In this document: piece after piece, positions 46,584 through 64,000 of the stretch | How positions within the stretch are numbered: position 1 is the stretch's first letter | How the letters are laid out: each line of letters opens with the position of its first letter | Assembly (NCBI GenBank): GCA_029262455.1 | Contig: JAJCZJ010000002.1 | Coordinates: forward strand, 1 to 64,000 | Reading direction: 5' to 3' | DNA: 64,000 nucleotides | DNA from: Deltaproteobacteria bacterium | GTDB taxonomy: Bacteria > Desulfobacterota > Binatia > HRBIN30 > CADEER01 | Translations under genes and position numbers: made by a program | Notes under the pieces: generated by a model | Database searches by the model: none | Told to the model about the DNA's origin: nothing | What the model saw: only the letters and a program-made list of their open reading frames with translations

Positions 46584-46633
46584 CCTCCTTCAGTGTTTGA
46601 TTCAGCGTTGAAGCTCGAAGGCGCGGCCCTGTG

Positions 46634-47788
46634 ATGGAACCAAAAAAGCCCCCCAACCTCATTATTCATGCCGACTGGGGCAAGGAACCCAAGAAGCGGT
46701 GGATGGCCAACGCCAGATTGAATGAGGCTGGCAGCTATGTGGCAGCCGCCGCTGAACCAGTCAGCAACACTAGCCACCTTATGTCGCGAGTCCGTACAGA
46801 GGTCTCACCTTCGGGCTGCGCCCTTCTCGGCTTCGATTTCCCGATCGGCCTGCCCGCGTCCTACGCAGCTGCGGCAGGCATCTCCGACTTTCGGAGTTTT
46901 CTCGTGGACGTCGGTAGCGGGGAATGGACGGACTTCTTTTCAGTCGCCGAGAAACAAGAAGAGATTTCTCTACATCGGCCTTTCTATCCACACAGCTCGC
47001 AGCGGCCCGGTAAACCTAAGCGCGAACATCTAATCAGAGCTCTGGGAGTGGCCGACATCGACGCTCTTCGACGCCAATGTGAGCGTCGCCACGCAGACCG
47101 AGGGGCGGCGTGCCCGTTGTTTTGGACCCTGGGCGGCCAGCAGGTCGGTAAGGCCGCCATATCTGGATGGAAAGAGATTATCGCGCCTGCGATTCAGGCA
47201 GAGCAACAAGACGTCCGCCTCTGGCCATTTGACGGATCCCTCGAAGAACTCCTCCACAACGGTGCAATCGTACTCGCCGAAACCTACCCAGCAGAATTCT
47301 ACGGTCACTTGGGAGTCAAGTTTCCGCCATCCCGCGCCGGCAATCGCACCGGTAAGCGCATCAAAGCCGACCGAGCGATGAACGCAACTGCACTACTGAG
47401 TTGGGCTGTATCGGCCAGTGTCGAAATCACCAATGATCTTCGCGCCGAGATCGAAGACGGTTTCGGCAACAGCGCCGACGGTGAAGACAGATTCGACGCG
47501 GTCGTCGGACTGTTCGGCATGATAAACGTGGTGCTCGGCAATCGAGTGGCCGGTGCGCCGAGCGACACGGACACTACGAATGTCGAGGGCTGGATCCTCG
47601 GGCAAACATCCAATCCTCCACCGCGACCAAGAGAGCCGCGCCCAACGTTGCCGACCGCTGGAGCGCAGCCGGTCATGAGTGAACTCGACCGCCTTACTGG
47701 CCTTGTCAATGAGGCGATCGATGCTCTTCGTGCCGCGGGCGCTACAGACGAAGCGTTGAGAATTGAGCATATTCTTCGGTCGAAATAG
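46634..47788 (+). CDS. DUF429-like predicted RNase H-fold protein
   Basis: 384 residues from the ATG at 46634 (a GTG directly before it is the other option). The pattern fits the DUF429 family, predicted to have an RNase H-like fold. An N-terminal strand carries an acidic residue (LIIHADWGKEPKKRWM). A second acidic strand follows (GCALLGFDFPIGLPASYA), then ETYPAEFYGHLGV, and a late DRFDAVVGLFGM where the last catalytic Asp would be. About 60 extra C-terminal residues form a proline linker and a helix (MSELDRLTGLVNEAIDALRA). If active it would act on nucleic acid, but the activity of this family is not established. It is probably co-transcribed with the gene at 45879. Confidence 0.65.
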   Translation: MEPKKPPNLIIHADWGKEPKKRWMANARLNEAGSYVAAAAEPVSNTSHLMSRVRTEVSPSGCALLGFDFPIGLPASYAAAAGISDFRSFLVDVGSGEWTDFFSVAEKQEEISLHRPFYPHSSQRPGKPKREHLIRALGVADIDALRRQCERRHADRGAACPLFWTLGGQQVGKAAISGWKEIIAPAIQAEQQDVRLWPFDGSLEELLHNGAIVLAETYPAEFYGHLGVKFPPSRAGNRTGKRIKADRAMNATALLSWAVSASVEITNDLRAEIEDGFGNSADGEDRFDAVVGLFGMINVVLGNRVAGAPSDTDTTNVEGWILGQTSNPPPRPREPRPTLPTAGAQPVMSELDRLTGLVNEAIDALRAAGATDEALRIEHILRSK

Positions 47789-48090
47789 GGGTTGGACCAA
47801 CTGGGTTGGACTAGCGCGGTCCATCCAGCAGCCCTTGGCCTCCCAACTCTCGGAGCCCCGGAAAACACCTGGGGCGGTTCCTCCAATCAGTCGTTTTACT
47901 CGCTTGGGCTCAATCATCCCGTCGACGAGCGCGCTCGGCATGCGAAACGAGTGCGGCCACATAAGCTCTGTCGAAACTCAGGATCGGGTCGTCGCCCCCG
48001 CTACCCGCCGTGAGAGTGCCGAGAACTTGGAATCTCCCAAAAGACCACGTCCACCGTAACCCCTCGCGACCTGCCCCCCCGAGGATGCAG
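47789..48090. other. Convergent intergenic region
   Basis: These 302 bp lie between genes reading toward each other. I see no gene and no strong terminator; short overlapping frames have no start signals. Confidence 0.4.
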
Positions 48091-49536
48091 CTAGCAATGT
48101 GACGACGCTTCGATCACCGCGTTCGCGAATTCTTCAGATGCTAGCGGAACCTGTGCATATACCAACCCACTTTCACCTTCTAGCTTCGCGAGTAAGTGGC
48201 CTTTGCCGAGTAGTTTTTCGGCACCCTTTTCTCCCAAAGCAATCTCCGAGGTGCCTTCACCGTCGACCCGAAGGATCAGGCGGTTACCTAAGTTGGACCG
48301 AAGTTGCATCGGCATGACGTTCGCATCAGGACGTTGAGCTGCAAAGATCAAGTGGATGCCTGCTGCACGCGCTTTCACGCCAAGGCGCTGCACACTCTTT
48401 GAAACCGCCTCTTTGTAATCATCGACCATCATCCATTCAGCGAATTCGTCGTGGATGAGCCAGATCGTCGGCATCCGCTCTGAGGAATCGACTTTTGAAT
48501 TGAAGGAGGTGATGTTATTGGCTTTTGCCGATCGGAATCTCTTGTAGCGGTCGTCCATTTCTTGAACCAAAGACTGAAGGCGCTGGATGGCTTGCTCTTC
48601 GTCGACGATCAAACCGTCCCCAAGGTGCGGAAGATCCTCGAATTGGAAGTAATCGACGCCCTGCTTGGGATCGATGAGAAGGATGATCGCTTGCTGAGGC
48701 GTGTTAGTCGCCACGATCCCCAGCAGGATGTTCTGCATAAGAACCGATTTGCCGCTGCCGGTCGATCCCGCGATAAGCGTATGCGGTGCGTGCTTTTTGC
48801 TCGGATCTAAGTACAAGACCGATCCGTCGTTTTCTCGGACCGCGATAGCGATTTCCTGGTTGCCACGGCTGCTACGTTCTGGGCTCCATCGCATCCAAAT
48901 TGACGCCAGGTTCACAACTTCCCGTTCAGGTCTCTCAATCGCAATTGAAACAATTCCCGGCTCAGGCTGAATCGCAATGATGTTCAAACGATGAGTTGTC
49001 AAGAATTCTGAACGGCGTTTTGCGACCTGCTCGACCGTCATGTGAGCGCTACCAGCAAACTTCAGCAAGGCAGCATTAGGCGTCATCTTTGACTCGAGCA
49101 GCTTCGCCTGCAAATTGAACTGTTGAAGCCCCGTCTTCGCGGCGAACTCTGTCTTCTTGAGCCACTCAACATCAGCCTGGGACGACTGTCGTTCCTCAGC
49201 ATGGTGCTCCACGATCGACGACAGTCCCGGGTATACCCATCGGCCGTCGCCCGCTGGTCCATTCTGCTGGTCTTCCTTTACGTGGCTCTGATGACCGGTT
49301 TTCGTCATCGTCGCCTCGGTTGTAGTATTGCTCTCATCGGATTCCGATTGCTGTTGCTCATCCCGTCCTTCTAAATCGACGGGCGTCGAAGAAGTCACAT
49401 CCCGCCGCACAACATCCGCTTTTCTCTTGAGGGCTGTTGGCGGTTTGAATTCGTGCGAATTGCCAGAAGGAGGAAAATCAAAACACCGGTTTCTCGCACC
49501 CGCCGGATCTTCGTCGTTCCAGTACGCCAGCACCAA
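48091..49536 (-). CDS. DptH-like C-terminal FtsK/HerA ATPase, apparently truncated
   Basis: 481 residues. The last ~240 form an FtsK/HerA-type motor. Walker A is GSTGSGKS at 257-264, Walker B is in PTIWLIHDEFAEW at about 356-368, the sensor region is RAAGIHLIFAAQRPD, and a GEKGAEKLLGKGHLLAK ending follows. The ATPase and the region before it (LTTHRLNIIAIQPEPGIVSI, MTPNAALLKFAGS) match the end of DptH, the ATPase of phosphorothioation-dependent restriction. DptH is normally far longer (over 1500 residues). Here the N-terminal bulk is missing, replaced by a ~100-residue charged linker. The frame is open upstream to the transposase stop, and the best starts are TTG 49536 or GTG 49533, without a Shine-Dalgarno. 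No dptF, dptG or dnd gene is in the window. It is either a decayed restriction gene or a rewired motor. Confidence 0.75.
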   Translation of the reverse strand: MVLAYWNDEDPAGARNRCFDFPPSGNSHEFKPPTALKRKADVVRRDVTSSTPVDLEGRDEQQQSESDESNTTTEATMTKTGHQSHVKEDQQNGPAGDGRWVYPGLSSIVEHHAEERQSSQADVEWLKKTEFAAKTGLQQFNLQAKLLESKMTPNAALLKFAGSAHMTVEQVAKRRSEFLTTHRLNIIAIQPEPGIVSIAIERPEREVVNLASIWMRWSPERSSRGNQEIAIAVRENDGSVLYLDPSKKHAPHTLIAGSTGSGKSVLMQNILLGIVATNTPQQAIILLIDPKQGVDYFQFEDLPHLGDGLIVDEEQAIQRLQSLVQEMDDRYKRFRSAKANNITSFNSKVDSSERMPTIWLIHDEFAEWMMVDDYKEAVSKSVQRLGVKARAAGIHLIFAAQRPDANVMPMQLRSNLGNRLILRVDGEGTSEIALGEKGAEKLLGKGHLLAKLEGESGLVYAQVPLASEEFANAVIEASSHC

Positions 49537-49593
49537 GTCCCGTGCAAGGCCCAGGCCGGTGTCACCGGCGCAACCGTTCGATATGACTTGGGT

Positions 49594-50370
49594 TCACCCC
49601 GAATCAGGGCCCGAATTTCGGCTTAGCGTATCGATTTCGGGGTCGGAATGAACACTGTAGTGCGCACTGGCCTCGCGCAGAACCGAGATGCCGTCGATGT
49701 CTTCGATCCGACGGGAACGCGCACGGTGACCCATCTGCTCTTGCACTTCCTCGACGAACGAGCGCCGTCCAACGGCCAACCCTTCGCTCCAGTGCGCCTC
49801 GCGCTCAAGGTCGCCCCGCCGCAGCCGCGCCTCGATCCACTCGTTCTGCACGCGGGCCAGTCGGCTCGGATGAACCGCCAGCAGCTCCGACAGAGCTTCG
49901 CGGTCAATGACGCGATAGCGTTGCGGCGGATTTTGGATCTCCTGGTAACCTGACTCGCGCCACTCTCTCGGATGATCGACCACGCCGGCGCGGACCATGT
50001 TTAGATCGATGTACGTGAAGCAGCGTGCGAGGTGGTCGTCCGTGTCGACCACCGTCGATTGATAGAAGTCCTCCCAGAAGGCGCCTCGTCGGCCCTTACG
50101 CACGTTGTAGGCCTGCCCGGTACAACCCGCGACGAGCTGCATGCTACGAGCGACCTCCCCGTTGCCGCGGTCGTGCACCAAGAGATGAACGTGGTTCGAA
50201 GTAACCTGATGGTTGAGAACGCACAGTCCGAACCTCTTACGCGCCTGATATAGCCAGCGCATCCAAGCGCGCCGATCTCGGGCAAACTTGAGCAAGAACT
50301 GCTTGCGATGGCAGCGGTCGGTGATGTGACAGACCTGGCCATCGAGATGGAAAAGATGCGCTCTCGGCAC
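49594..50370 (-). CDS. IS200/REP-associated (Y1, HUH) transposase
   Basis: 258 residues. The HUH motif (SNHVHLLVHD, His60 and His62) and the likely catalytic Tyr88 (TGQAYNVRKGRRGAFWEDFY) are present, followed by the family hallmark FTYIDLNMVRAGVVDHPREW. The length and C-terminal extension (helical, Arg-rich) fit REP-associated tyrosine transposases, which move or maintain REP palindromes by single-strand transfer. The GTG at 50370 follows a strong Shine-Dalgarno (AAGGAGG), so it is likely expressed. Its stop is directly in frame with the DptH-like fragment downstream. Intact by all visible criteria. Confidence 0.88.
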   Translation of the reverse strand: MPRAHLFHLDGQVCHITDRCHRKQFLLKFARDRRAWMRWLYQARKRFGLCVLNHQVTSNHVHLLVHDRGNGEVARSMQLVAGCTGQAYNVRKGRRGAFWEDFYQSTVVDTDDHLARCFTYIDLNMVRAGVVDHPREWRESGYQEIQNPPQRYRVIDREALSELLAVHPSRLARVQNEWIEARLRRGDLEREAHWSEGLAVGRRSFVEEVQEQMGHRARSRRIEDIDGISVLREASAHYSVHSDPEIDTLSRNSGPDSG

Positions 50371-50756
50371 TTGCGTTCCTCCTTAGAGTTGCGATTTCGA
50401 CAGTAAAATCGTACTCCTAAGGGGCTAGATCAACAAGTAATACAATACTTATCTAGCGAATCTAGTCACTTGCTCCGGTGACACCGGCCCTGGCCCCCTC
50501 TCGCGGGCCTCGCGAACGGCTGCCGCACCCACGCACTTGGAAGCGATGCAGAATCGAGCACGATGCGCGCGCGAAGGGACGGGAAACGCGACAAGAGAAC
50601 GGGGAGGCCTAGGGAATGTTGTCGCACTCGAGCGTTCCCCCGGTCGTATCGACTGTCCTAGGACGGACGCCCTCTCTAATGCCGCGCTTCCTGGCGAGTC
50701 TGCTCGGCTCTTGCATCGGATGCTTCGGTATTCTCCGCTGACGGGACCGGCACCCA
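50371..50756. other. Intergenic region upstream of the transposase
   Basis: These 386 bp lie between the transposase and a small minus-strand gene. An Arg/Ser-rich frame on the minus strand (about 50449-50832) shows no start signal or family pattern. Nothing else is seen. Confidence 0.4.
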
Positions 50757-51191: not shown

Positions 51192-51545
51192 TTACCCCGG
51201 GGAAAGTCGGGAACTAGCGCGGTCCGACGGCACGAGTAACAGCAACTCCGTAAGGAAATTCAAACCGGCGATGTTGGCGGCATCCTCGCATCTGACATCA
51301 GTCGCTTCGGTCGCAACGCGATGGAGTTGATCGCACTCAATCAAGATCGCCGAGACACCGCCACGCTCATCAATCTTGAACGGGGAGGTCAACGACCCCA
51401 ACAACCCTGCCCGCTCCTGGGGAAGGAGAGGGACGTAGAGGGCGACTCGGGCGAAGCTCATGCACGTCAGCAGCGCGCCTTCGTCGAGCAGCGCCTGACT
51501 GCGAAATCGCCCCTCCCAGAACCGGCCGGTACAACCTAATACGGA
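51192..51545 (-). pseudogene. Fragment of a second Y1-type transposase joined to unrelated DNA
   Basis: Between about 51545 and 51459 the minus strand reads [20 protein letters not shown] then LTCM. This is the signature centre of IS200/REP-type transposases, where YVDLNPIRA normally follows. Here the match stops and the frame continues into an 89-residue stretch ([20 protein letters not shown] and on to 51192) without transposase features. A TAG lies just upstream of the fragment. It therefore looks like a broken element. Confidence 0.6.
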
Positions 51546-51587: not shown

Positions 51588-54500
51588 TCAACGTGCCAGC
51601 TGATAGTTTCGGTAGGCCCAACTGAACTCGACAGCGGCAGGCGGGAAGCGCCAAGAACGACCCACGACTGCGCTTGCCGCGTTGCCATTGCACATCCCCT
51701 CTCGCGGAAGCAAAGTGCCGACGGCAGTGCTTGCGAATCCCGGTCCAATCGAGACTGCGGATTCCCAGAACGGTCCAGAGTAGTCGCTCGCGGTGCAGAC
51801 GTTCCAGACGGGTCCCGCTCCCACAGATTCAGACACAGTCGGCCCCAGCCCGAAAGACCCGACCGCAAAACTGATAAACACTCCCCTAGATAGATAACTG
51901 TCGCCGACCACACTCGGGAACTTCCTCAGTGTTTCGAAGGAGCCCGAGGCTCCTTGCGCACCGATCGCGTCACCAAATCCCAGACTAAACCCGAGCGCCG
52001 AAACTGAATGAGTGGGCACGGGCCCGGAAAGGATTGCCCGCAAGCTGGCCAGAGTCGTGAAAGTGAACCCGGAAACGGTAGCGGCAAGTCGCTTGGCTGT
52101 CAGGACTTGGTTTAAGGCAAGGCTCGCATAGCCTGCCATGGGGCTACGGCCAGTGGGATCTCCATTGGTGGTCGGGTCAAGTCGCCCGTACTGGTAGGGG
52201 TGGACAGTGAAGGGGTCGTGGGGATCACCTTCTTCCGGGTCGCGCGAAATGAATCGTCCCGCAGAACTATCAAAGTACCTCGCGCGAAGATAAATCAGGC
52301 CTGTTGAAGCGGATTGCTCCTCGCCGGCAAAACCGAAACGGAAATCGAATCCGTCGTCGGCCAGAATCTTACCAAAGGCATCGTAACGCCGTTCTGCCGC
52401 CAAAGAGCCGGTCGAATCGGAATACGCTCGAATATTGTTCCATGGATCTCTATGGGGTACTTCAAGCGCGCTGCTGGCTAGCGCAAAGAGCACAGCGTCG
52501 GCGTACGCAAAGCGCGTGGTCCCTTGCTCGGAGGTTTCTTCGATCGATCGAGACATCAAAGTCGATGCGTCGACAAGGAACGAAGCAGACTTGTCGTCAG
52601 TAGTCTCGGAAAGTCGGATCCCCGCGTGACCGTACTCGTAATTGAGCAGCAGCCCATCCGAGCGGCTGATCGAAGTAAGTCGATTTAGCGCGTCAAATGT
52701 GTAGTCCGTTGTTTCAGAAGGGGACACTACTCTTCGGACATTGCCGTTCGCATCGCACTCGTACAGCGCGTCACCAGCGCTCTCGATGCAGTAATTCGCG
52801 TCGTAAGTATAGGTCAACTCCGCCAGCGAATCCTCTCGAGAGATTCTATTTCCAACTGCGTCATATGTGTAGCTAATCTTCTCGCTGCCAAATGCGGGGC
52901 CTGACGTTACTTCCTCGACAACCCGATGTAATCGGTCGTACGTGTATGTCGTCGTCTGCCCGCTTCCTTCCTGAATAATGCGGACAGGTGTATCAGTAGT
53001 TTCGTAAGAAACATCGTAGGAGGCCAGCACTTCCCCTGTCGTGCCTCGATGTTCAGTGCGAACGATCCTGCCCAGGGCGTCGTAGTCGTACTCTGAGCTG
53101 GTGCCATTCGGGAGGCTGGTGCTCATTGACCGAAGATCTGAGTCGTACGAGAAGACTGCTCGATGCGCGCCGTCTATCTCTACGGACTCGATCCGATTCA
53201 GCCGATCGTAAGTGTAATCGAATCGACCGCTTTGAGTCTCAATTGCGGTTCGGTTGCCGCGCTCGTCGTAGGTGTTCTCAATAAACTGCCCGCCAGGAAA
53301 ATCCGTCCGGACCGGGCGCCCGAAAGAATCGTACTGGTGGGATGTCGTTCCGCGAGGGCCTACGATTGTGCTTAGCCGACCCGATTCATCGTAAGAGAAG
53401 TCGTGTCGAACGCCATCGGAGACCGAAGTGCGGCTAATGACGCGACCCGCCGAGTCGTTCTCGTACACGATCTCGTCACCGCTAAAATTGGTCCGAGAAA
53501 TGAGATCCCCAAATGTGTTGTAACGAAACGATTCCGTTTGGCCTCCTGGGAGAATCTTCTCCTCGACCTTGTTTCGGTCGTTGTAGCGCCAGCGGGTCGT
53601 GTTTCCATTCGCGTCAGTCTGGGAGATTCGATTGCCCAATTCGTCGTACTCGAAAGTGGTTCGGTTACCTAACTGGTCAAGAACCTCGGTGATCTGTCCG
53701 TCTGCGTCTCGTGAATAGGTATAAGTTGGACTGCTTGATGAGGCGCTCGCGATTACGTTTCCTGCTTCGTCGAGTTGGAGGTCCCGGAAGACGTGGTCGC
53801 CCGAGGTGAATCGTGTCGGGAGATTCACTTCGTTGAAACTTGCGGAAACCCGCATGCCGTCAGAGGATGCCATCTCCTGCAGGTTTCCGTTCGAGTCGTA
53901 GGCAAGAGAAACGTCATACTCGCCGTCGTCGATATGGATCTGCGACATCCTCCGGCGCTTGTGATGGGGGGGCGACCCAAACGGCTCTGGGCTAAACACG
54001 GTGCCTCCATCGTATTCGACCTGGATTGCCGTCCCGGCGGCCGTATACCTCTGCGGTCTCCCAGCCCTGTCGTAGCTGATGGTTGTCTCCCGGCCGAGAT
54101 CGTCAACAAGCATGACCGGTCGACTTGCGTTATCGAAGCGGTAGGAGAACTGACGTCCAGACCGATCGCGGCGCGAGAGGAGGTTCCCATTTGCGTCGAA
54201 CTCGCGGGACTCGAAGGATCCGTCGGAGTATTCCGTCCGGGTGTTGTTGCCTCGCTCGTCGTAGTGAAAGACGCCGGTAACGCCGCGGATGTCTGTTGTC
54301 TCTTCAATCGCCCCGTCAGGTCTGTAGCTGATGGTAGATGTTTGTCCCACCATATCGTGGAAGACTACTGGCCGGCTCTCGTTGTCAAACTGAGTGCGCG
54401 TGGTGAGAATCCTAACGGTTCCGTCCGAATCAGCACGGTACCGGCGCGTGGCTGTTCTGTTGCCGAGCGCATCGTATTCGTGCTCCCGGCGATTTCCTGA

Positions 54501-57500
54501 TGGATCGACGACCGCCAGGAGGTTGCCGGATGCGTCGTACTCGAAGTTTGCGAAGTTGCCGCGCCGATCAGTCTGAGTCGTCACGTTACCGGCCGAATCA
54601 TACGTCCATGTCCGAGCATTTCCAGCAGGATCTCGCTCCTCGACGAGGTTGCCGGAGGGGTCGTACGCGTAGGTGTAGATATTCCCAAGAGGGTCTGAGA
54701 TGGTTTCAACTTGATTGTTCGCGTACGTGTAGGTGGTGGTGTTACCGAGATCGTCGCGACGCTCGAGCACATTCCCGTCGCGGTCATAGGAGCGAAAAAC
54801 AATCTCGCCCTCACCGTTGGCTTCGGTTCGAAGGTTGCCAAGGGCATCGTATTCGAAAACAATTTCGTCGCCGACAGGGTTAACGATGCGCGTGACATTT
54901 CCGAGGGTGTCGTAAACATATGTCATGGGGTTACCGAGCAGGTCCCGAATCACCTCAGTGTTCGAGTCGGTCTGATGTTCGAACTCAAGGCGTGTGCCTC
55001 CTGCTGTGGTTAAAGCCAAAAGTCGGCCAGTCTCATCATACTCGTTCCTAGCGACCCTTCGACCGAGCGGGTCAAGGTAGTCGAGAAGGTAGTGAGCCGG
55101 GGTGGCGAGATACGTAAAGGTAGTCTCGTTGGACTCACGATCCGTGACTGAGACCAAATCCCCATTTGCGTCGTAGCGATAGATGATCGAGTTGCCCGCC
55201 GGATCGGTAATCGAGGCGATCCGTCCTTCCGTGTCATGAGTGACCGCGACGGAGACCCCCGACGAGTGTGTGATTCCGGCGGCTTCAAACGCGAGGCTGT
55301 TCCCATTGCGGTGGACTACGCGGAGCAGCCCAGCTGTTTCATTGAGCGTATACTCGACGGCATCCTTCGTCGTAAGCACGAAGGTGCTAGGGTTATAGCT
55401 CCCGAGAAGGGTGAAGTAACCGCCGCCACTACGGAAAAGGAGCGTGTTAGGCACGCTGAGTGTATCGAAAACACCGGAATCGGCGCGGAAACCGGGGGAG
55501 CAGCCGAAGAATCCGCAGCTTGGCGTGAAGGTGAACCCTATGCGGCGGCCGTCAGGCTTGGTCACGTAGACCTTTGTGCGATCTGTGAACGGTTCAAGCG
55601 GTGATTCGCTAGCGGAATCAACAACCTGCCCGGGATAACCCAGTCGCCAGCCAGCGCCGAAGTCACCCGGAGAGGTGTCGAGGCTGTCGTAGGTGCGTGT
55701 GATCGTGATGGGGATGCCCGCTAGGGGAATCGATAGATCGGTGAACGAGATTCGGAAGTTGCCCAGCTTGAGGTTGCCGCTGATGCTGTAGCGGCTGAGA
55801 GCTGAATTGCTCTTGCCGCCGAGGTCAAACGCGACTAGCTCGACGAAGTAGACACCGTTGGCGATCAGGGTCGGGTCCAAAGTGCCGAGCACCCCTTCAC
55901 GAACAGGACCGTCGCCAGCGCCGATTTCGCGAACGAAGTTGCGGTCGCTGTCCAGCAGACGCAGCTCGTATCGATAGAAGTTGTCGTCGGTTGCAGTTCC
56001 GATGATCTCGACAGGACTCGTGATGTCTGTATCGACAACTGGCGACGTGATCGCGACCTCTGGGAATGTATCGTCCTCCACACGGGCCAGCACGGACAGC
56101 TGGGCCGCTCCCTCAATCCCATCCAGGCGTGCCGTGAGGTTCGCGGCTCCTTCGGAAAGCGCTTGCGCGAGACCACTCGAATTGATGGACGCGATTGCCG
56201 GTGCGTCAGTGTCCCAGGACGCGGCAACCGTGACGTCCTGCGTGGAGCCGTCGGTTAGGGTGGCGATGGCCGAGAATTGCCGCGTATCGCCCTGGAGGAC
56301 CTCAGCCTGGGCGGGCCGCACTTCCAGCGAGCTGGGCTGTGGCGCTTCGTCGGATCCGCTGCAATCGTCGTCGATTCCGTTCCCCGAGATCTCTGGCGCA
56401 CCAGGATTGATCGCCGAATCCATATCATCGCAGTCGCCGTCCCGTTCCGTGAAGCCGTCTTCGTCGTTGTCCTCGGCGTCGTCCCAGCAGCGTCTAGCCA
56501 CGCCGTACTGCCCATTGGTGTCAGCCCACGTTCCCGCCATACAGCAACCGTCTTCCGACAGAATCATCTCGTTCATCGAAACGTAACAGCATCCAGAGTT
56601 GATCGTGAGCGCGATTGGATCGCCCGGGCTCGGGGCGACGGAGGCTTCAAAGGTTGCGTTGACTAGAACCCCGGTGGTTGTCGTGAGGTAAGTGAGGTGT
56701 GCACTGCAACCTGCGGTCCCCGTGCAGGCGCCCGTCCAATCCCCCAGCGGGTACGCCGGGTCGGTCGAGCAATCGACATTGCAGGTGCAGTCCGGCCTAC
56801 ACTGCGCAGCAGGGCAGGCTTGGGGTCCGCCCCCGGAAGACGGATCGCATGACTCGACTGCGTCGAGTTTGCCGTTGCCGCAGGTGGATTGGCTGGACAT
56901 GTTGACGGCCCGGACACTGCCCAGGTCAAAGCCTTGAGAGGAGCCAATGAGATCCTTTCCAACGATTTTGACCGCAGTAACAGGTTCTGCGAACTGAGCG
57001 GTCGCCAAGTCTACACCGATCAGAGCCGTTGAGGATTTCACCGTCTGGACGAAGGTGAAGTCGACGCCGTTGCTGCTGACGAAAACGTCAGCTTCTTCGT
57101 TGGCCGCGAAGAGTTCGCGAATCTCGAAGTCGTCTCCTGGCCCGTCGATGATCGACTCGTCAATGAAACCGAGAGTGATCTCCGCACCCGTAGGGAGCGA
57201 CAGGTAGTCGATGGCTCCGGTCGGTCCGGGTTCGTCACCGGTCGCGACACAGACATCGATGGGCACCGCATCCGTGAGCGAGATCGGACTGCTAATGGAT
57301 CCGCCCGCAGTGCCTCCTGAGGGTCCCGGCAGGTTTCCGGCACCACTGTCTTCGTACCTCAGCACAACGTCAGCGAATCCAAGTCGGGTTACGCCCTGAC
57401 AGTCGCCGATGACCACTCGTGCATCGACGCCGTCGCAGTCCTCGTCGATCCCGTTTCCTGGAATTTCCGTTGCATCGGGGTTCACTGATGCATCGTTGTC

Positions 57501-60500
57501 GTTGCAGTCCCCGTCCGACGGGGAGTAGCCGTCACAATCGTCGTCGACGGGAACGAGGAGCTGGAAGCTCTGCTCATCGCGGCCGCCTCTCCCATCATCC
57601 ACCGCGACGATGACCGAATGCTCACCGCGCTGGTCTCGGCGTGGGTTCCAACTCACAAGTCCCGTCTGTGGGCTGATGACCATGCCAGCGGGGTGTTCTT
57701 CGAGTGTAAACGTCAACGAATCCCCGTCGGGGTCGAACGCTTCCACCTCGTAACCATACGAGCGCTCGTCGCAATTACCCTCGACGAATACCAGGCCGGT
57801 CACGCCAACGAATCCGATCGGCCCAACTTCACTTACCGCACCTGTATCTGGATCAATCCTCACTAATGTTGCAGGTCCGATGTTACTCGTGGTCGGATTC
57901 GTTGCCCCGAAGAGCTGGTCGCCCTTGCCGAAGTCCAGCGCCAGGAGAATGGAAGGTAGAATCGCAACCGATTCCCGCACCAAGGTCGCCGGGTCTACGC
58001 TAAAGAGCTCCCGTGTCTGAATATCCTGCGCGTAGAGCCTGCCATTCGACGACCGATATGCCAGGGAATCGATGTCCGCGCTGCCCGCCGGGCCAATGGG
58101 CCCCAGAACAGATGCGCTCGAACCCACGACGTCGATAGTGGTTAAGCTCTCCGACCACTCCGCGAACGGTTCAGCGTCGGTTGCAGAAGCACCGTAAAGG
58201 ACGTCAGCAGCGGTGGCCAGACCCTCGACCATGAGGACCCCAGAGAGCGGACTGCCCGCTAGCACCTGGCCGCTCTCGTCGTCCACGGTGTAGATTGCTG
58301 GCTCATTGGTAACGGCTACCAGATCGCCGTCATCGCCCATGCCGAGCGCATCAGCCGAGACGAGGCCGGCCTCTCGAAGCAGCTTGCCTTCACCTGTGGA
58401 CGGGTCAATCGAGATGAGCGCACCGGAGAAGGTGATGCCGAGCAGGCGATCATCTCGACAAAAGCCGTCGTCACCCGGCCCGAAAGTATTCAGTCTGAAG
58501 TTGTTCAGTTCTGGAACAAGCCAATTGGGTCGCTCCGCCTCCGGGATCGAACCATCCTCTTCCACGTTTGTGATGTGGTAGCTGTGCTGGTTCCAAATTC
58601 CCCGAGTGCTAGCCCAGCGTGTTCCACCTGATCCATACACGAACACGCCCTCGGGAAGCTCAACGCCCAATTGGCCTTCAAGGAAGTCGCCAAACCCAAG
58701 AATGTTGTTTCGCGCAACAACGATCTCCGCCTGCCCGTCGCGATCGACATCCGCGATCACAGGGTATTCTGTCGCGGTTCCGGTGGGATTCGGCACCTCG
58801 GCAAGTACCTCACCGTCGCTGCCTCGGTAGATTCTCAGATACAGCTCGTCGTTGTAGAGAACTTCGGCGTTTCCGTCCCCATCAAAGTCGAACACCGATG
58901 AGCCAGTCAGGCTTGAGGAGAAATCACGCGTCGGCTGGCGCCATTTCAGTGAACCATCCGTCTCGAACACCGAGTAGAATGAACTCCCAGCAACTCCAAC
59001 TTCGGCCATACCGTCGTTGTCAAAGTCCGCTACCGTCGGCGGCCCTCCCCTGCCGCCGCCGATCGACGACGGTCCCCATTTGAGGGTCCCATCATGCTCA
59101 AGAACGTAGACGGCTCCCGCAGCAACCACGACAATTTCTGGGTTTGGATCTTCATCAAAGTTTCCGATTGCGGGATATGAACCGGCGTCGGAAAAACTGT
59201 AGAAGAGTGTCCCGTCGGAGCGAAACGCACGAAAACCCGTGACGATCTCCATGTCCCCGGTAAGGTCCAGGTCGGCCGCTGTCGAGATGGGGCCGAATCC
59301 CGGACCCACGTCCGAATTTGGAAGAAGAAGGTTCCCAGCGTTGTCAAAGACCGCTGTGCCGTAGATCAGCTCTGGCGTACCGTCGTGATCGAGGTCTGCG
59401 ATGGATGGCGCACCTGTTGCGTTGATATTACCAATCAGGAAGGCGTCGGAGAATTTTTTTATTGTGCCATCGTTCTCGAATATCACGAGGCGAGTCCCCT
59501 GCTGGGCGATCACCTCCGGTAGGCCGTCGAGGTCGATGTCACCGATCGCCGGAGCGACGCAGGGAGACACCCACGGGTCTGCTACATCGAAGATTGAGCT
59601 GCCGTCAGATCCGCTCACGGCCCGCAACACACCTTGACTCGCGCATACGATTCCCGCGGTCGAGGACGTTGTTGCGAAGATGATATCGGGAATATCGCTG
59701 ACGTCGACACGTCCATCGCCGTTATCATCGTTCAAGTTCGCCACCATTGGGGCGACGACGACTTGCACCGATGCAGGTTCAACATCGCTGCCCGTCCAGG
59801 ACCATTCGAGCACAGGTTCGATTGTGAAAGTCGGCTCCGAGCTGGAGTCGCATTGCACCGAGCTCGGGGGATCACTCGTGATCACCGGCGGGTTGTTCGG
59901 CCCTATATCGTCACCGTCGCAGTCTTCGTCCACACCGTTCCCCGGGATCTCCGGTGCGTTCGGAAAGACTCCGGAGTTCGAGTCGTCGCAGTCGCCGTCC
60001 TCAGCTGTAAAGCCGTCGCAGTCGAGATCCCTCGTAACTACCAAGTCAAAGCTCTGCACCGAGGCCCCACCGCGGCCATCCTCCGCTTGAACGCTTACTT
60101 GGAACCGGCCAACCTGTGGCTGCCATTGAAGAAGGCCTGAATCCGGGTCTACCTCCATGCCCGAAGGGCCTTCGATCAGGACAAATCCAACAACGTCGCC
60201 GTCAGGGTCGACGGCATCTACGCCGTATAGGTAAGGATCTCGCGGGGCAGCTACGTCCAGAATCGTGGGGAGAGCGATCTCGATCCATGTAGTGACCGCG
60301 AGCCTCCTCTCCAGCGGCGCAGAGAACCATGAGCCATCGATCGCCTGCGTCTTGAGCAGGTACTCCGCACCGCGGAGAATCGCAGTGTCGAGCGTCGAGG
60401 AGGCGAGGGAAATCGCTTCCAGGGCCTGGGCGCTCTGAAAGGGTCTTGGAGCTCCAGCGCCTGCAAGGCTATCGGACCAGCCACCTTCGAACTGTTGAGC

Positions 60501-63500
60501 TGCGCGGAGCGCTTCGTCCGCCTCATGGATTCGCGCCGTTGCCAATGCCTGCGCTGCCTCATCGAGGAAAGGCAAAGCTGCGTGGAGACCGATGATCGTT
60601 TGCGCAGCCGTTCGCACGTTGAGAGCGAAGTTCCAGGACGCACCCGAGAAGAACGCGGCATGCCTCTGAATCGCACCGAGGTAGTCGTCCCTGCGAGCGC
60701 CCAGCTGGAGCCCGACATCACTCACCGTGACGGGGTGGAAGGTGCTCGCGAGAGTGGGTGCTGGATCGGTGGTATACTCCAGGACCATCTCACGAACGTG
60801 ATGCTCCGGCTCCCAGATCTGCGTCAACCGCAGCCGGGAGATATCCTCGGGCACCGCAAAGGTCCAGAGGCCTTCTGCGGGCGTGATCAGGCTATTCAAC
60901 GGCGAATAGGCCCAACCATCGTTCCTATCGTTCAAGACGCCGTTGATCGTTTCTGGAGAGATTGGGAAGCCGCTCTGAGAGAAATTCGCTACGGCGCCGT
61001 CGAAAACACGTAGAGTTTCACTACTGAAGGCCTGTAATTCGTTGAGCACGAAGTTCTCGTTGGAGGCGAACGTATCCGAGATGGTGATCTTGAATCCGGT
61101 CACCCCGGAAATGTTCGGAAAGAGGATGTCGACGTTGGTGCGGGGAGCCTGCTCAAACAGAATGCGCGAGCCTTCGATCGTCACGTCGTTGAGCGCAAGA
61201 AAACTCTCTCCGTCCAGCGACATCGCGACACTGGCTAGAGCCTGGAGGTTGCCAGCTGTGTGAGTTCCGCTGACCCCGCCCGGGTTGTCATTGTATAGCC
61301 TCGTCCCGGCGGAGTGGGTGTGATCAGGCAACCAACCGCCGCCAACGACTTCCTGCGTCAGCAGCCAATCCAGGGCACGCACCAGAGGCAACGTTAGTCT
61401 ACCTCCAATGGAGGCCTCCTGACTCGCCACCGCCCACGCCCACAGTGAAGTTTGCGTCTTCGGGTGAAAGCTAGTCCCAGCCTGCTGGGGAACGAATCCT
61501 TCTCCCCCCAACCAGAATCGGGACTCGTACGCATCAGCCAGCTTCGTTTCGAGACCGCCTGAGATTGGGAGATCTGGCACCTTCTTGCGTGATTGTGCCA
61601 GACCGGTGCTCGCTTGAGTCTGAACGTGGCAGCCGAAACAGTTGTAGTCGGTGCGGGAGATCCAGGTTCCCCATCCGGCTAACTCTCCCTGCTCCCACAA
61701 GATGCCCCGGGTCATCGCGTCGCGTACCCGAGTGAGCAGGCTGTCGGTAGGTCCAGAGAGCTGGGTGAGTTGAAAGGACTGACTACCTCGGTTGTCTCCG
61801 GGTACGGAGTCCGGGAATCTAAAAAAGACGTTTGCATGAACTGGCAAGTGGATCTCGAAGAACTGGCCGGAGCTGGCCTGCTGGGCTTGCGCGGATGTTG
61901 CGAAGGAGCTCAGAGTGTCGTGAACGAACCCGAACCGGTACTCCTTGCTCGCGCCGGGAGCCGTAACGACAACATCGACAGCCCAAGAACGCCCGGCGTT
62001 GTCGCTGTCGGTTGCCCACCGGGACACAGCCCCTTCGAAATAGGAGACGCGGTAGACACCCGCATTGAGCTCAGCGAGCTGCCCATCCGTAACGGACGTG
62101 CCCGCGGCCGTTACGGCGTCCACGACCACGACCTGAACCTGTTCGGGCGACGCGTCTGATGTCCCGATGACCCGGATCTCGTCGATGAGATGGAATGCGT
62201 CGTTTAGGCTGCTGTGTGTGCCAATGACTCGGAGATAACGGGCAGCCGTCGGCAGCGGCAGAAAAACGCGTTGGAATCCGCGGTAGTCGCCAACAGTCCG
62301 ATCAATGACCTGCTCGAACGTGATGCCATCCACTGATGCTTCGATCTCGTAACGAAAGAAGCGATCATCCTCATAGAGGTGTAGATGGATCTCATCGACT
62401 TCGCGCACCACGCCGAGATCGAGTGAGACGGGTTGCCGCGCAGAAATTGTCGTGGTGCTGAATAGCTCGTTGCCGCCACCGATCTCGTCTATCAAGAAAG
62501 GCGAACTTGGAGAAATTGTTCCGCCGCGACTGGCCGCGGCCCAGTTGATGCGATCGACGGTCGCAGGGAGCGCGGGAGCCGTGCCGGCAGTTCCTTGCAG
62601 GGACGAAGGCTCGTGGCTTGCGATTGGCTCAAACACATTCTGCGCTACGGGTGAGGATTCCCCGTTCGATAGAGAGACCTGAACGGCCTGGACAATCGCG
62701 GAACCGGGCCCACACCCAAAGAGGGGCCGCGGTTCCGTGGTAATCAGCGGCGGACGGTTGGGCGCCTCCTCGACGCGGACAGAGAAGCTTTGCTCATCGG
62801 TTAGACCCTTAAGATCACGCACGACGACCGTCACCGCGTGAGTCCCAACTTGTTGATCTGTCGGCGTCCACTCGATCACCGCAGTCTTTGGATTGATCGT
62901 CATCCCGAGCGGCGCATCGGGTAACGAGGCTTCCAGAACGTCTCCAACATCCGGGTCGAAGGCTTCAACCGGGTAGCGGTAGAGATACCGGGTCCCACTA
63001 TCCGTGACCGGCTCGGATACAATCCTCGGTGCGGTATTCGGATCGGTTGTGGAAGTAGCTGTGGCCGTAGGGGTCGAGGTCGGGCTAGCCGTGTCCGTCC
63101 GCGTCGGACTCGCGGTGTTCGTCGAGGAAGGAGTGCTCGTCGGACTCGCGGTGTTCGTCGAGGAAGGAGTACTCGTCGGACTCGCTGTGTTGGTCGAGGA
63201 AGGAGTACTCGTCGGACTCGCGGTGTTCGTCGAGGAAGGAGTGCTCGTCGGACTCGCGGTGTTCGTCGAGGAAGGAGTACTCGTCGGACTCGCGGTGTTC
63301 GTCGAGGAAGGAGTACTCGTTGGGCTCGCGGTCGAGGTTGGACTGGCGGTATCCGTCTCGGTCGCGCTCGCTGTGCTGGTCGAGGAAGGAGTACTCGTTG
63401 GGCTCGCGGTCGAGGTCGCGGTTGGTGTAGGCAGCTGAGCCTGTAGATGCACGTCCACTCGCAGGAACATGCCGTCTCCACCAGGGGCCGCAAGAAAAAT

Positions 63501-64000
63501 CGCACGCAGATCGGAACCCTCGAGAGTCGCATCTCCGACCGCATCCCGGCCAGCGATGCTATCGCCATCCCAATCGCCGATCTCGCCGTCGAGCATCATT
63601 ACTGCCCACACCGGAAGTGCGACCAAAACCATCCCAGCAATTCCCGCTCGCCAAGATACGCGCCATGACGCGCGCCGGCGCGCCGAGACCAGAATCAATG
63701 CAAAGAGTAATAGCGCGAGCCCCGCTGCCGAGAGGACTGGGGCGGGGGCTGCTAGTAGGGCTTCAGCGGGCAGCAAAGCATCCTGGCTGCCATTGTCGTC
63801 GATGACGTCGACCCCGAATCTGGCGGCGTCACTCAGGCCTTCGCTCCGAGGCATCAGGGCCAGGAAGAGCTCGACGACGTCGGCGCCATCAATCCCGTTG
63901 CCGAGCCCGATGGGCCAGCCGCCCGAGTCGACCAACTTGGCGGGACCGAAGCTTCCAGACGAAGGAACACAGGAACTGAGCTGTATCGACCCAACCACCC
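51588..64000 (-). CDS. Giant exported RHS multi-domain protein, N-terminus beyond the window
   Basis: At least 4136 residues; the GTG at 63998 may be internal because no signal peptide is seen. In order: two membrane segments (about 86-106 and 117-135), the first like an IPTL-type sorting signal; Pro/Ser/Thr repeats; an Ig-like domain; a discoidin-like (F5/8 C) domain (nucleotides about 62150-62500); a CxxCH haem-binding motif; an alpha-toroid region like terpene cyclases (ALDWLLTQEVVGGGWLPD, AEYLLKTQAIDGSWF); three DGDCDD-type metal-binding repeats, with FG-GAP repeats (about 58500-59750) between the first two. A Big_2-like domain (PSSLEVRPAQAEVLQGDTRQ) follows, then about 1100 residues of YD repeats with the RHS core (RARYFDSSAGRFISRDPEEG). 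The ~200-residue tip is Gly/Ser-rich and beta-like (ISFAVGSFGLGPTVSESVGA) with no known toxin motif. It is probably surface-anchored. Confidence 0.92.
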   Translation of the reverse strand, partial: VVGSIQLSSCVPSSGSFGPAKLVDSGGWPIGLGNGIDGADVVELFLALMPRSEGLSDAARFGVDVIDDNGSQDALLPAEALLAAPAPVLSAAGLALLLFALILVSARRRASWRVSWRAGIAGMVLVALPVWAVMMLDGEIGDWDGDSIAGRDAVGDATLEGSDLRAIFLAAPGGDGMFLRVDVHLQAQLPTPTATSTASPTSTPSSTSTASATETDTASPTSTASPTSTPSSTNTASPTSTPSSTNTASPTSTPSSTNTASPTSTPSSTNTASPTSTPSSTNTASPTSTPSSTNTASPTRTDTASPTSTPTATATSTTDPNTAPRIVSEPVTDSGTRYLYRYPVEAFDPDVGDVLEASLPDAPLGMTINPKTAVIEWTPTDQQVGTHAVTVVVRDLKGLTDEQSFSVRVEEAPNRPPLITTEPRPLFGCGPGSAIVQAVQVSLSNGESSPVAQNVFEPIASHEPSSLQGTAGTAPALPATVDRINWAAASRGGTISPSSPFLIDEIGGGNELFSTTTISARQPVSLDLGVVREVDEIHLHLYEDDRFFRYEIEASVDGITFEQVIDRTVGDYRGFQRVFLPLPTAARYLRVIGTHSSLNDAFHLIDEIRVIGTSDASPEQVQVVVVDAVTAAGTSVTDGQLAELNAGVYRVSYFEGAVSRWATDSDNAGRSWAVDVVVTAPGASKEYRFGFVHDTLSSFATSAQAQQASSGQFFEIHLPVHANVFFRFPDSVPGDNRGSQSFQLTQLSGPTDSLLTRVRDAMTRGILWEQGELAGWGTWISRTDYNCFGCHVQTQASTGLAQSRKKVPDLPISGGLETKLADAYESRFWLGGEGFVPQQAGTSFHPKTQTSLWAWAVASQEASIGGRLTLPLVRALDWLLTQEVVGGGWLPDHTHSAGTRLYNDNPGGVSGTHTAGNLQALASVAMSLDGESFLALNDVTIEGSRILFEQAPRTNVDILFPNISGVTGFKITISDTFASNENFVLNELQAFSSETLRVFDGAVANFSQSGFPISPETINGVLNDRNDGWAYSPLNSLITPAEGLWTFAVPEDISRLRLTQIWEPEHHVREMVLEYTTDPAPTLASTFHPVTVSDVGLQLGARRDDYLGAIQRHAAFFSGASWNFALNVRTAAQTIIGLHAALPFLDEAAQALATARIHEADEALRAAQQFEGGWSDSLAGAGAPRPFQSAQALEAISLASSTLDTAILRGAEYLLKTQAIDGSWFSAPLERRLAVTTWIEIALPTILDVAAPRDPYLYGVDAVDPDGDVVGFVLIEGPSGMEVDPDSGLLQWQPQVGRFQVSVQAEDGRGGASVQSFDLVVTRDLDCDGFTAEDGDCDDSNSGVFPNAPEIPGNGVDEDCDGDDIGPNNPPVITSDPPSSVQCDSSSEPTFTIEPVLEWSWTGSDVEPASVQVVVAPMVANLNDDNGDGRVDVSDIPDIIFATTSSTAGIVCASQGVLRAVSGSDGSSIFDVADPWVSPCVAPAIGDIDLDGLPEVIAQQGTRLVIFENDGTIKKFSDAFLIGNINATGAPSIADLDHDGTPELIYGTAVFDNAGNLLLPNSDVGPGFGPISTAADLDLTGDMEIVTGFRAFRSDGTLFYSFSDAGSYPAIGNFDEDPNPEIVVVAAGAVYVLEHDGTLKWGPSSIGGGRGGPPTVADFDNDGMAEVGVAGSSFYSVFETDGSLKWRQPTRDFSSSLTGSSVFDFDGDGNAEVLYNDELYLRIYRGSDGEVLAEVPNPTGTATEYPVIADVDRDGQAEIVVARNNILGFGDFLEGQLGVELPEGVFVYGSGGTRWASTRGIWNQHSYHITNVEEDGSIPEAERPNWLVPELNNFRLNTFGPGDDGFCRDDRLLGITFSGALISIDPSTGEGKLLREAGLVSADALGMGDDGDLVAVTNEPAIYTVDDESGQVLAGSPLSGVLMVEGLATAADVLYGASATDAEPFAEWSESLTTIDVVGSSASVLGPIGPAGSADIDSLAYRSSNGRLYAQDIQTRELFSVDPATLVRESVAILPSILLALDFGKGDQLFGATNPTTSNIGPATLVRIDPDTGAVSEVGPIGFVGVTGLVFVEGNCDERSYGYEVEAFDPDGDSLTFTLEEHPAGMVISPQTGLVSWNPRRDQRGEHSVIVAVDDGRGGRDEQSFQLLVPVDDDCDGYSPSDGDCNDNDASVNPDATEIPGNGIDEDCDGVDARVVIGDCQGVTRLGFADVVLRYEDSGAGNLPGPSGGTAGGSISSPISLTDAVPIDVCVATGDEPGPTGAIDYLSLPTGAEITLGFIDESIIDGPGDDFEIRELFAANEEADVFVSSNGVDFTFVQTVKSSTALIGVDLATAQFAEPVTAVKIVGKDLIGSSQGFDLGSVRAVNMSSQSTCGNGKLDAVESCDPSSGGGPQACPAAQCRPDCTCNVDCSTDPAYPLGDWTGACTGTAGCSAHLTYLTTTTGVLVNATFEASVAPSPGDPIALTINSGCCYVSMNEMILSEDGCCMAGTWADTNGQYGVARRCWDDAEDNDEDGFTERDGDCDDMDSAINPGAPEISGNGIDDDCSGSDEAPQPSSLEVRPAQAEVLQGDTRQFSAIATLTDGSTQDVTVAASWDTDAPAIASINSSGLAQALSEGAANLTARLDGIEGAAQLSVLARVEDDTFPEVAITSPVVDTDITSPVEIIGTATDDNFYRYELRLLDSDRNFVREIGAGDGPVREGVLGTLDPTLIANGVYFVELVAFDLGGKSNSALSRYSISGNLKLGNFRISFTDLSIPLAGIPITITRTYDSLDTSPGDFGAGWRLGYPGQVVDSASESPLEPFTDRTKVYVTKPDGRRIGFTFTPSCGFFGCSPGFRADSGVFDTLSVPNTLLFRSGGGYFTLLGSYNPSTFVLTTKDAVEYTLNETAGLLRVVHRNGNSLAFEAAGITHSSGVSVAVTHDTEGRIASITDPAGNSIIYRYDANGDLVSVTDRESNETTFTYLATPAHYLLDYLDPLGRRVARNEYDETGRLLALTTAGGTRLEFEHQTDSNTEVIRDLLGNPMTYVYDTLGNVTRIVNPVGDEIVFEYDALGNLRTEANGEGEIVFRSYDRDGNVLERRDDLGNTTTYTYANNQVETISDPLGNIYTYAYDPSGNLVEERDPAGNARTWTYDSAGNVTTQTDRRGNFANFEYDASGNLLAVVDPSGNRREHEYDALGNRTATRRYRADSDGTVRILTTRTQFDNESRPVVFHDMVGQTSTISYRPDGAIEETTDIRGVTGVFHYDERGNNTRTEYSDGSFESREFDANGNLLSRRDRSGRQFSYRFDNASRPVMLVDDLGRETTISYDRAGRPQRYTAAGTAIQVEYDGGTVFSPEPFGSPPHHKRRRMSQIHIDDGEYDVSLAYDSNGNLQEMASSDGMRVSASFNEVNLPTRFTSGDHVFRDLQLDEAGNVIASASSSSPTYTYSRDADGQITEVLDQLGNRTTFEYDELGNRISQTDANGNTTRWRYNDRNKVEEKILPGGQTESFRYNTFGDLISRTNFSGDEIVYENDSAGRVISRTSVSDGVRHDFSYDESGRLSTIVGPRGTTSHQYDSFGRPVRTDFPGGQFIENTYDERGNRTAIETQSGRFDYTYDRLNRIESVEIDGAHRAVFSYDSDLRSMSTSLPNGTSSEYDYDALGRIVRTEHRGTTGEVLASYDVSYETTDTPVRIIQEGSGQTTTYTYDRLHRVVEEVTSGPAFGSEKISYTYDAVGNRISREDSLAELTYTYDANYCIESAGDALYECDANGNVRRVVSPSETTDYTFDALNRLTSISRSDGLLLNYEYGHAGIRLSETTDDKSASFLVDASTLMSRSIEETSEQGTTRFAYADAVLFALASSALEVPHRDPWNNIRAYSDSTGSLAAERRYDAFGKILADDGFDFRFGFAGEEQSASTGLIYLRARYFDSSAGRFISRDPEEGDPHDPFTVHPYQYGRLDPTTNGDPTGRSPMAGYASLALNQVLTAKRLAATVSGFTFTTLASLRAILSGPVPTHSVSALGFSLGFGDAIGAQGASGSFETLRKFPSVVGDSYLSRGVFISFAVGSFGLGPTVSESVGAGPVWNVCTASDYSGPFWESAVSIGPGFASTAVGTLLPREGMCNGNAASAVVGRSWRFPPAAVEFSWAYRNYQLAR
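61626..61640 (-). other. CxxCH haem-c motif in the RHS giant
   Basis: The codons for CFGCH (in TDYNCFGCHVQTQ) form a c-type haem attachment site within the exported part of the giant, just before the alpha-toroid region. A single isolated motif can occur by chance, but CFGCH is a common cytochrome context. Confidence 0.5.
63111..63326 (-). repeat. 36-bp tandem repeat, six copies
   Basis: Six near-identical 36-bp units start at 63111, 63147, 63183, 63219, 63255 and 63291; degenerate copies follow to about 63420. On the minus strand each encodes a 12-residue STPSSTNTASPT unit of the linker near the N-terminus of the giant. It is a potential length-variable (VNTR) linker. Confidence 0.92.
63672..63743 (-). 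other. IPTL-CTERM-like transmembrane motif near the N-terminus of the giant
   Basis: Residues about 86-109 read APVLSAAGLALLLFALILVS followed by ARRR: a Pro-x-Leu-Ser-x-x-Gly start, a single hydrophobic helix and an Arg cluster. This is the layout of the IPTL/PEP-type sorting signals that normally end a protein. Here more than 4000 residues follow. Confidence 0.5.

Follow-up and report, generated by a model that had tools for sequence, protein, structure and literature searches.

The frame at 48091–49542 on the minus strand of the window (the whole 64,000-nucleotide stretch of contig JAJCZJ010000002.1 analysed here) encodes the final ~483 residues of SspH, which is the FtsK-type subunit of a restriction module, SspFGH, linked to phosphorothioation. 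This restriction gene is cut precisely at the end of an element carrying a RAYT (REP-associated tyrosine transposase) gene. The tail is probably a relic, left when an SspFGH module was recently truncated at the RAYT element, a reading to which we give a probability of roughly 80%.

The truncated gene and its break point

The open reading frame at 49593–48091 (minus strand) remains open down to a stop at 48091, and its SspH part comprises 483 codons plus the stop (PADLOC, BLAST and ORF list). The SspH profile (PADLOC PDLC02806) matches it with 650 bits (E 1.9e-195) over positions 1277–1763 of 1766, whereas the DndH profile reaches only 15.5 bits and the best generic FtsK/EssC model ~110 bits; Pfam reports an FtsK/SpoIIIE domain (E 1.7e-37). 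The first-pass annotation had described a frame matching only the C-terminal motor of DptH. The headless, C-terminal nature of the frame stands, as does a similarity that goes beyond generic FtsK motifs, but the scores make SspH the better name and rule out DptH/DndH, of which neither the profile nor, on the contig, a DndB-like partner is present.

The nearest proteins found are both full-length SspH, from a gammaproteobacterial symbiont of Ctena (L050, 1,769 aa) and a member of the Pirellulaceae (L051, 1,771 aa). The tail aligns from residue 1286 of each, at 71% and 70% identity, respectively. In the symbiont the genes are ordered SspC-SspD-SspF-SspG-SspH-SspA. A full SspH from the same class as the host (G064, L030:9623-14905) is 53% identical to the tail over its residues 1273–1755, starting from window position 49542. 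Alignment to the full protein thus locates the break at residue 1273 or 1286, depending on the relative used. Since full-length relatives have ~1,750–1,830 aa, a protein of 481 aa is not of the usual SspH size. The tail resembles SspH of the SspABCD-SspFGH system (PMC8092258) over all 483 kept residues, and differs from it in being without the first ~1,285 residues, about three quarters of the gene, and without all the partner genes tested.

DndH/DptH proteins (~1,700 aa) combine DNA-binding domains with an inactive methylase and a REase, and have a HerA/FtsK domain at the C-terminus; some DndH carry FtsK-alpha (PMC10853773). The general layout, with a HerA/FtsK ATPase after the REase, is comparable despite the gap in profile scores. 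If it carries over to SspH, the tail would be without the recognition and nuclease parts; full length with such domains ahead of the motor is not what the frame offers.

Directly upstream lies an apparently intact RAYT gene of the Y1/IS200-like type (49594–50370, minus strand; 258 aa; Pfam Y1_Tnp), with the HxH and tyrosine motifs visible as HVH and YIDLN. The NCBIfam model REP_Tyr_transpos matches with E 4e-12, yet below the family cut-off. The two genes share a reading frame, as first annotated, with a TGA stop between them. A RAYT-SspH fusion protein is ruled out by this stop and by a RAYT relative whose alignment runs to the same last residue; because of that shared end, the common frame is a chance juxtaposition.

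The RAYT gene is enclosed by two inverted, REP-like palindromes, downstream at 49548–49573 (core CCGGTGTCACCGG) and upstream at 50470–50495, which form a 26-nt inverted repeat (88% complementary, spaced 896 nt). An intact element thus spans ~49548–50495. According to published work, two inverted REPs always flank a RAYT gene (PMC2817692), and the arrangement of a Y1 transposase gene between inverted palindromes is the same here. The locus differs in its NCBIfam score and in having few extra palindrome copies: the core occurs at 11 sites in the genome, and the match extends past the core only in the two sites beside the RAYT gene, so that the palindrome is not scattered in many genome-wide copies. 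The energy of the REP hairpin is unremarkable compared with shuffled sequences.

RAYT homologues are present in all four genomes of the genus examined. In five of the seven copies with both flanks available, the ends match within the copy (scores 12–21), while pairs between copies score 12 or less and the 99th percentile of shuffles is 11. The gap between the gene and the upstream palindrome is ~117–119 bp in four copies and 259 bp in the fifth; on the downstream side it is 23–48 bp. Because the ends covary within copies, the SspH break coincides with a border of the element. Homology to SspH begins at 49542, 5 bp outside the downstream palindrome; at the break region L050 reads ...EVFARKELRDLVLAYWNDE, and likeness of the window to it starts at RDLVLAYWNDE. 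The earlier placement of a transposase at the break is thereby borne out. An exact 13-nt direct repeat (ACTAGCGCGGTCC, 47810–47822 and 51213–51225) brackets the tail together with the RAYT gene, possibly by chance.

The retained motor

The kept tail begins with a short helical piece and a disordered linker, followed by an FtsK-alpha-like region and an FtsK-type motor. In the structure model (mean pLDDT 76), two short helices and the linker precede FtsK-alpha (49165–49542, minus strand); residues 36–98, the linker, have pLDDT below 50, and the model is confident across most of the FtsK-alpha-like region and motor. An alignment of 34 sequences shows Walker A (GSTGSGKS, 48745–48768, at its invariant positions) and Walker B (TIWLIHDE, 48445–48468), and both the arginine (KARAAG) and the sensor glutamine (FAAQRP) within 48328–48375 are kept (all on the minus strand); the significance of the latter two in HerA/FtsK ATPases is taken from PMC10853773. 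Foldseek matches the model to FtsK motors, with DNA (PDB 6t8b, E 3e-24; 2iut, E 8e-25). With these motifs and the common alpha and RecA-like motor fold the tail belongs to the FtsK/HerA ATPase superfamily, although it is only about 26% identical to FtsK and has neither its membrane part nor a recognisable gamma domain.

The sequence is undecayed. All 483 codons are open, and one of 102 near-invariant sites is changed, compared with 0–4 changes in full proteins. The tail has a terminal branch of 0.28, shorter than those of L050 (0.36) and L051 (0.32); its motor differs from these sisters by a dN of 0.133 and 0.148, and they differ from each other by 0.152, with synonymous sites saturated. No relaxation is seen in the tail, but a truncation would escape notice if it fell within the last few percent of so long a branch. 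Since no close relative dates the break, the undecayed tail fits recent truncation and retention alike. The intact Walker motifs, taken at first as a hint of retention, lose their force for the same reason: the whole tail is intact, as recent truncation would equally give.

The first possible in-frame start is a TTG at 49536, with no obvious ribosome site, and no promoter-like site was found ahead of the tail. An internal ATG (49306–49308) is preceded by GAGG. Using a start of this kind, or through re-initiation behind the RAYT gene, a freed motor might be kept as a stand-alone FtsK-alpha/FtsK ATPase. The completeness of the motor, with every catalytic residue present and no acceleration, speaks for this, as do low branch dN/dS in headless relatives and the gathering of their breakpoints at the nuclease/motor junction (see below). 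The breakpoints, lengths and neighbours of those relatives differ, however, the tail has no operon partner at its locus, and there is no close relative to date the break. Surviving bacterial pseudogenes are moreover expected to be young, which also counts against a freed motor. We consider its retention unlikely, and the same low probability applies to a role, be it translocating DNA together with another host partner or acting as a dominant-negative factor against SspFGH-like systems.

The missing head and the origin of the truncation

The search for the rest of the module was negative. The 96.9-kb contig has no detectable SspH head, SspC, SspD, SspF, SspG or DndB-like protein, no SspA was found in the window, and the tail forms no operon with sspF and sspG or any other partner gene at its locus. 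The genome, a 127-contig draft rated 100% complete, yielded no second SspH or head (only FtsK- and EccC-like matches) and no SspD, SspF or SspG, so that the absence of partners in the first-pass annotation is borne out for these Ssp proteins. The SspF query was silent in the host genome and four relatives and positive in two other genomes, which served as a control. SspH itself has no match at E 1e-30 in three genomes of the same genus.

No recognisable large gene lies in the DNA upstream of the RAYT element. At the expected place of the SspH head is a probable remnant of a second transposase, presumably of the Y1 type by its resemblance (51192–51545, minus strand); it has no NCBIfam hit, and 82-bp pieces similar to it occur on two other contigs (C91 and C121). 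Further upstream is one of the window's three giant YD-repeat ORFs, a YD/RHS-repeat frame (51588–63998, minus strand) with a length of at least 4,136 aa. Downstream of the tail, a convergent ORF of 385 aa (46631–47788, plus strand) has no Pfam match, a weak NCBIfam hit and no assigned family.

Because the 5' half of sspH is not on the far side of the RAYT element, simple insertion is ruled out as the sole event. The first-pass suggestion that an insertion destroyed a restriction gene is thus right about the break at an element border and insufficient as to the rest. In the relic reading, the lineage would have acquired the ssp cluster, or inherited it from an earlier acquisition; it would then have lost sspF and sspG as well as ~1,285 codons from the start of sspH. 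The break lies at the outer border of a RAYT element that is mobile in the genus, and would have arisen through insertion plus further deletion or through transfer of the tail alone. The remaining FtsK-type DNA-translocase unit, without nuclease and recognition domains, SspF and SspG, would carry out no restriction by the known mechanism, and its healthy look would reflect a break that is young relative to the tail's divergence. Protection requires each of SspF, SspG and SspH, and SspFGH is harmful to hosts that lack the modification (PMC8092258); defence is therefore not expected of a lone tail, and the module could plausibly be lost. A relic is favoured by the abrupt end of homology (49542) beside the element end at 49548, by the missing head and partners, by the lack of SspH matches in the three genomes of the genus, by the missing promoter-like and ribosome sites, and by the recurrence of independent 5'-truncations elsewhere. 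Its undecayed sequence speaks against it, as does the concentration of six of eight breaks in a single 12% stretch of the protein, which is unexpected under random erosion.

That the draft wrongly joins tail and transposase, or that the SspH head sits on an unassembled contig, has a precedent of sorts in L054, where the head of an IS66-interrupted sspH is on another contig. The fragmentation of the host draft would allow it. The junction here, in contrast, is internal to its contig, and the RAYT copy beside the tail is unique in the genome (the next is 76% identical) and is therefore no collapse point. With head, SspD, SspF and SspG all lacking from a genome rated complete, an assembly or binning artefact is very unlikely. 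A split SspH, with head and motor acting in trans as separate polypeptides, would suit a break near the nuclease/motor junction. It is extremely improbable, since the host genome has no head, nor do those of L069, L110, L118, L124 and L099, and the genomes of L063 and L075 hold only a few residues adjoining their own tails.

Truncated relatives of SspH

Eighty relatives were retrieved by the motor. Over 1,700 codons are in one frame in 59, three are complete across frame breaks, nine are cut by contig ends, and one is the L054 gene interrupted by an IS66-like transposase. In the other eight (L063, L069, L075, L087, L110, L118, L119 and L124) the 5' truncation lies within a contig, although L087 retains most of the protein and could have a divergent start instead. 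Six of the eight break at residues ~1,211–1,424, near the nuclease/motor junction (P 0.003 under uniform breakpoints, in this small, tail-selected sample).

Headless relatives are mostly about 325–540 aa, and their settings vary. The tail neighbours an rve integrase in L124 and a HIT protein in L075; L110 has a deletion inside sspG-sspH, L119 an SspF-SspH join with a frameshift, and L063 a stop codon upstream of the tail. In Leptolyngbya FACHB-321 (L118:930-12294), a 351-aa motor stands directly behind a SAV_2336-NTD conflict protein, with DISARM drmB/drmC beside the SAV_2336-type gene and SspA/DndA following. These stand-alone copies have no shared start and no shared neighbours; the differences argue for recurrent 5' erosion rather than one stand-alone family. 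In this small survey, loss from the 5' end of sspH appears to be frequent, the motor being the last part to remain.

Branch dN/dS is 0.02–0.06 in the headless L110, L118 and L124. The clustered breaks could reflect a pull to keep the motor, or one to lose the nuclease given the damage that SspFGH does to unmodified hosts. Should the clustering prove real, it would speak to the question of whether the FtsK motor in SspFGH-type systems has a life of its own. It is doubtful that motors are repeatedly released at this junction and kept as free DNA translocases, the present locus being one case; their service as, for example, inhibitors of incoming SspFGH-like systems or the motor of a new partner is just as doubtful.

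Across the phylum, two full SspH among 395 genomes are too few for a comparison of head-only with tail-only genes. Candidate phage copies of a stand-alone motor proved to be generic FtsK (below 35% among the matches listed). Plasmid copies were likewise rejected: at least 31 records cover 80% or more of SspH, with one small C-terminal remnant among those listed. The SspH motor sequences of two Zoogloea species and Aromatoleum tolulyticum (L066, L067 and L068) are identical, which points to horizontal transfer in the very recent past. Finally, a histidine-kinase/ATPase-like protein of ~780–840 aa and a partner of ~640–700 aa recur beside SspFGH loci of different phyla (L069:5547-10079, L054:4196-8475 and L119:11283-15715), and are possibly an unrecorded accessory pair.
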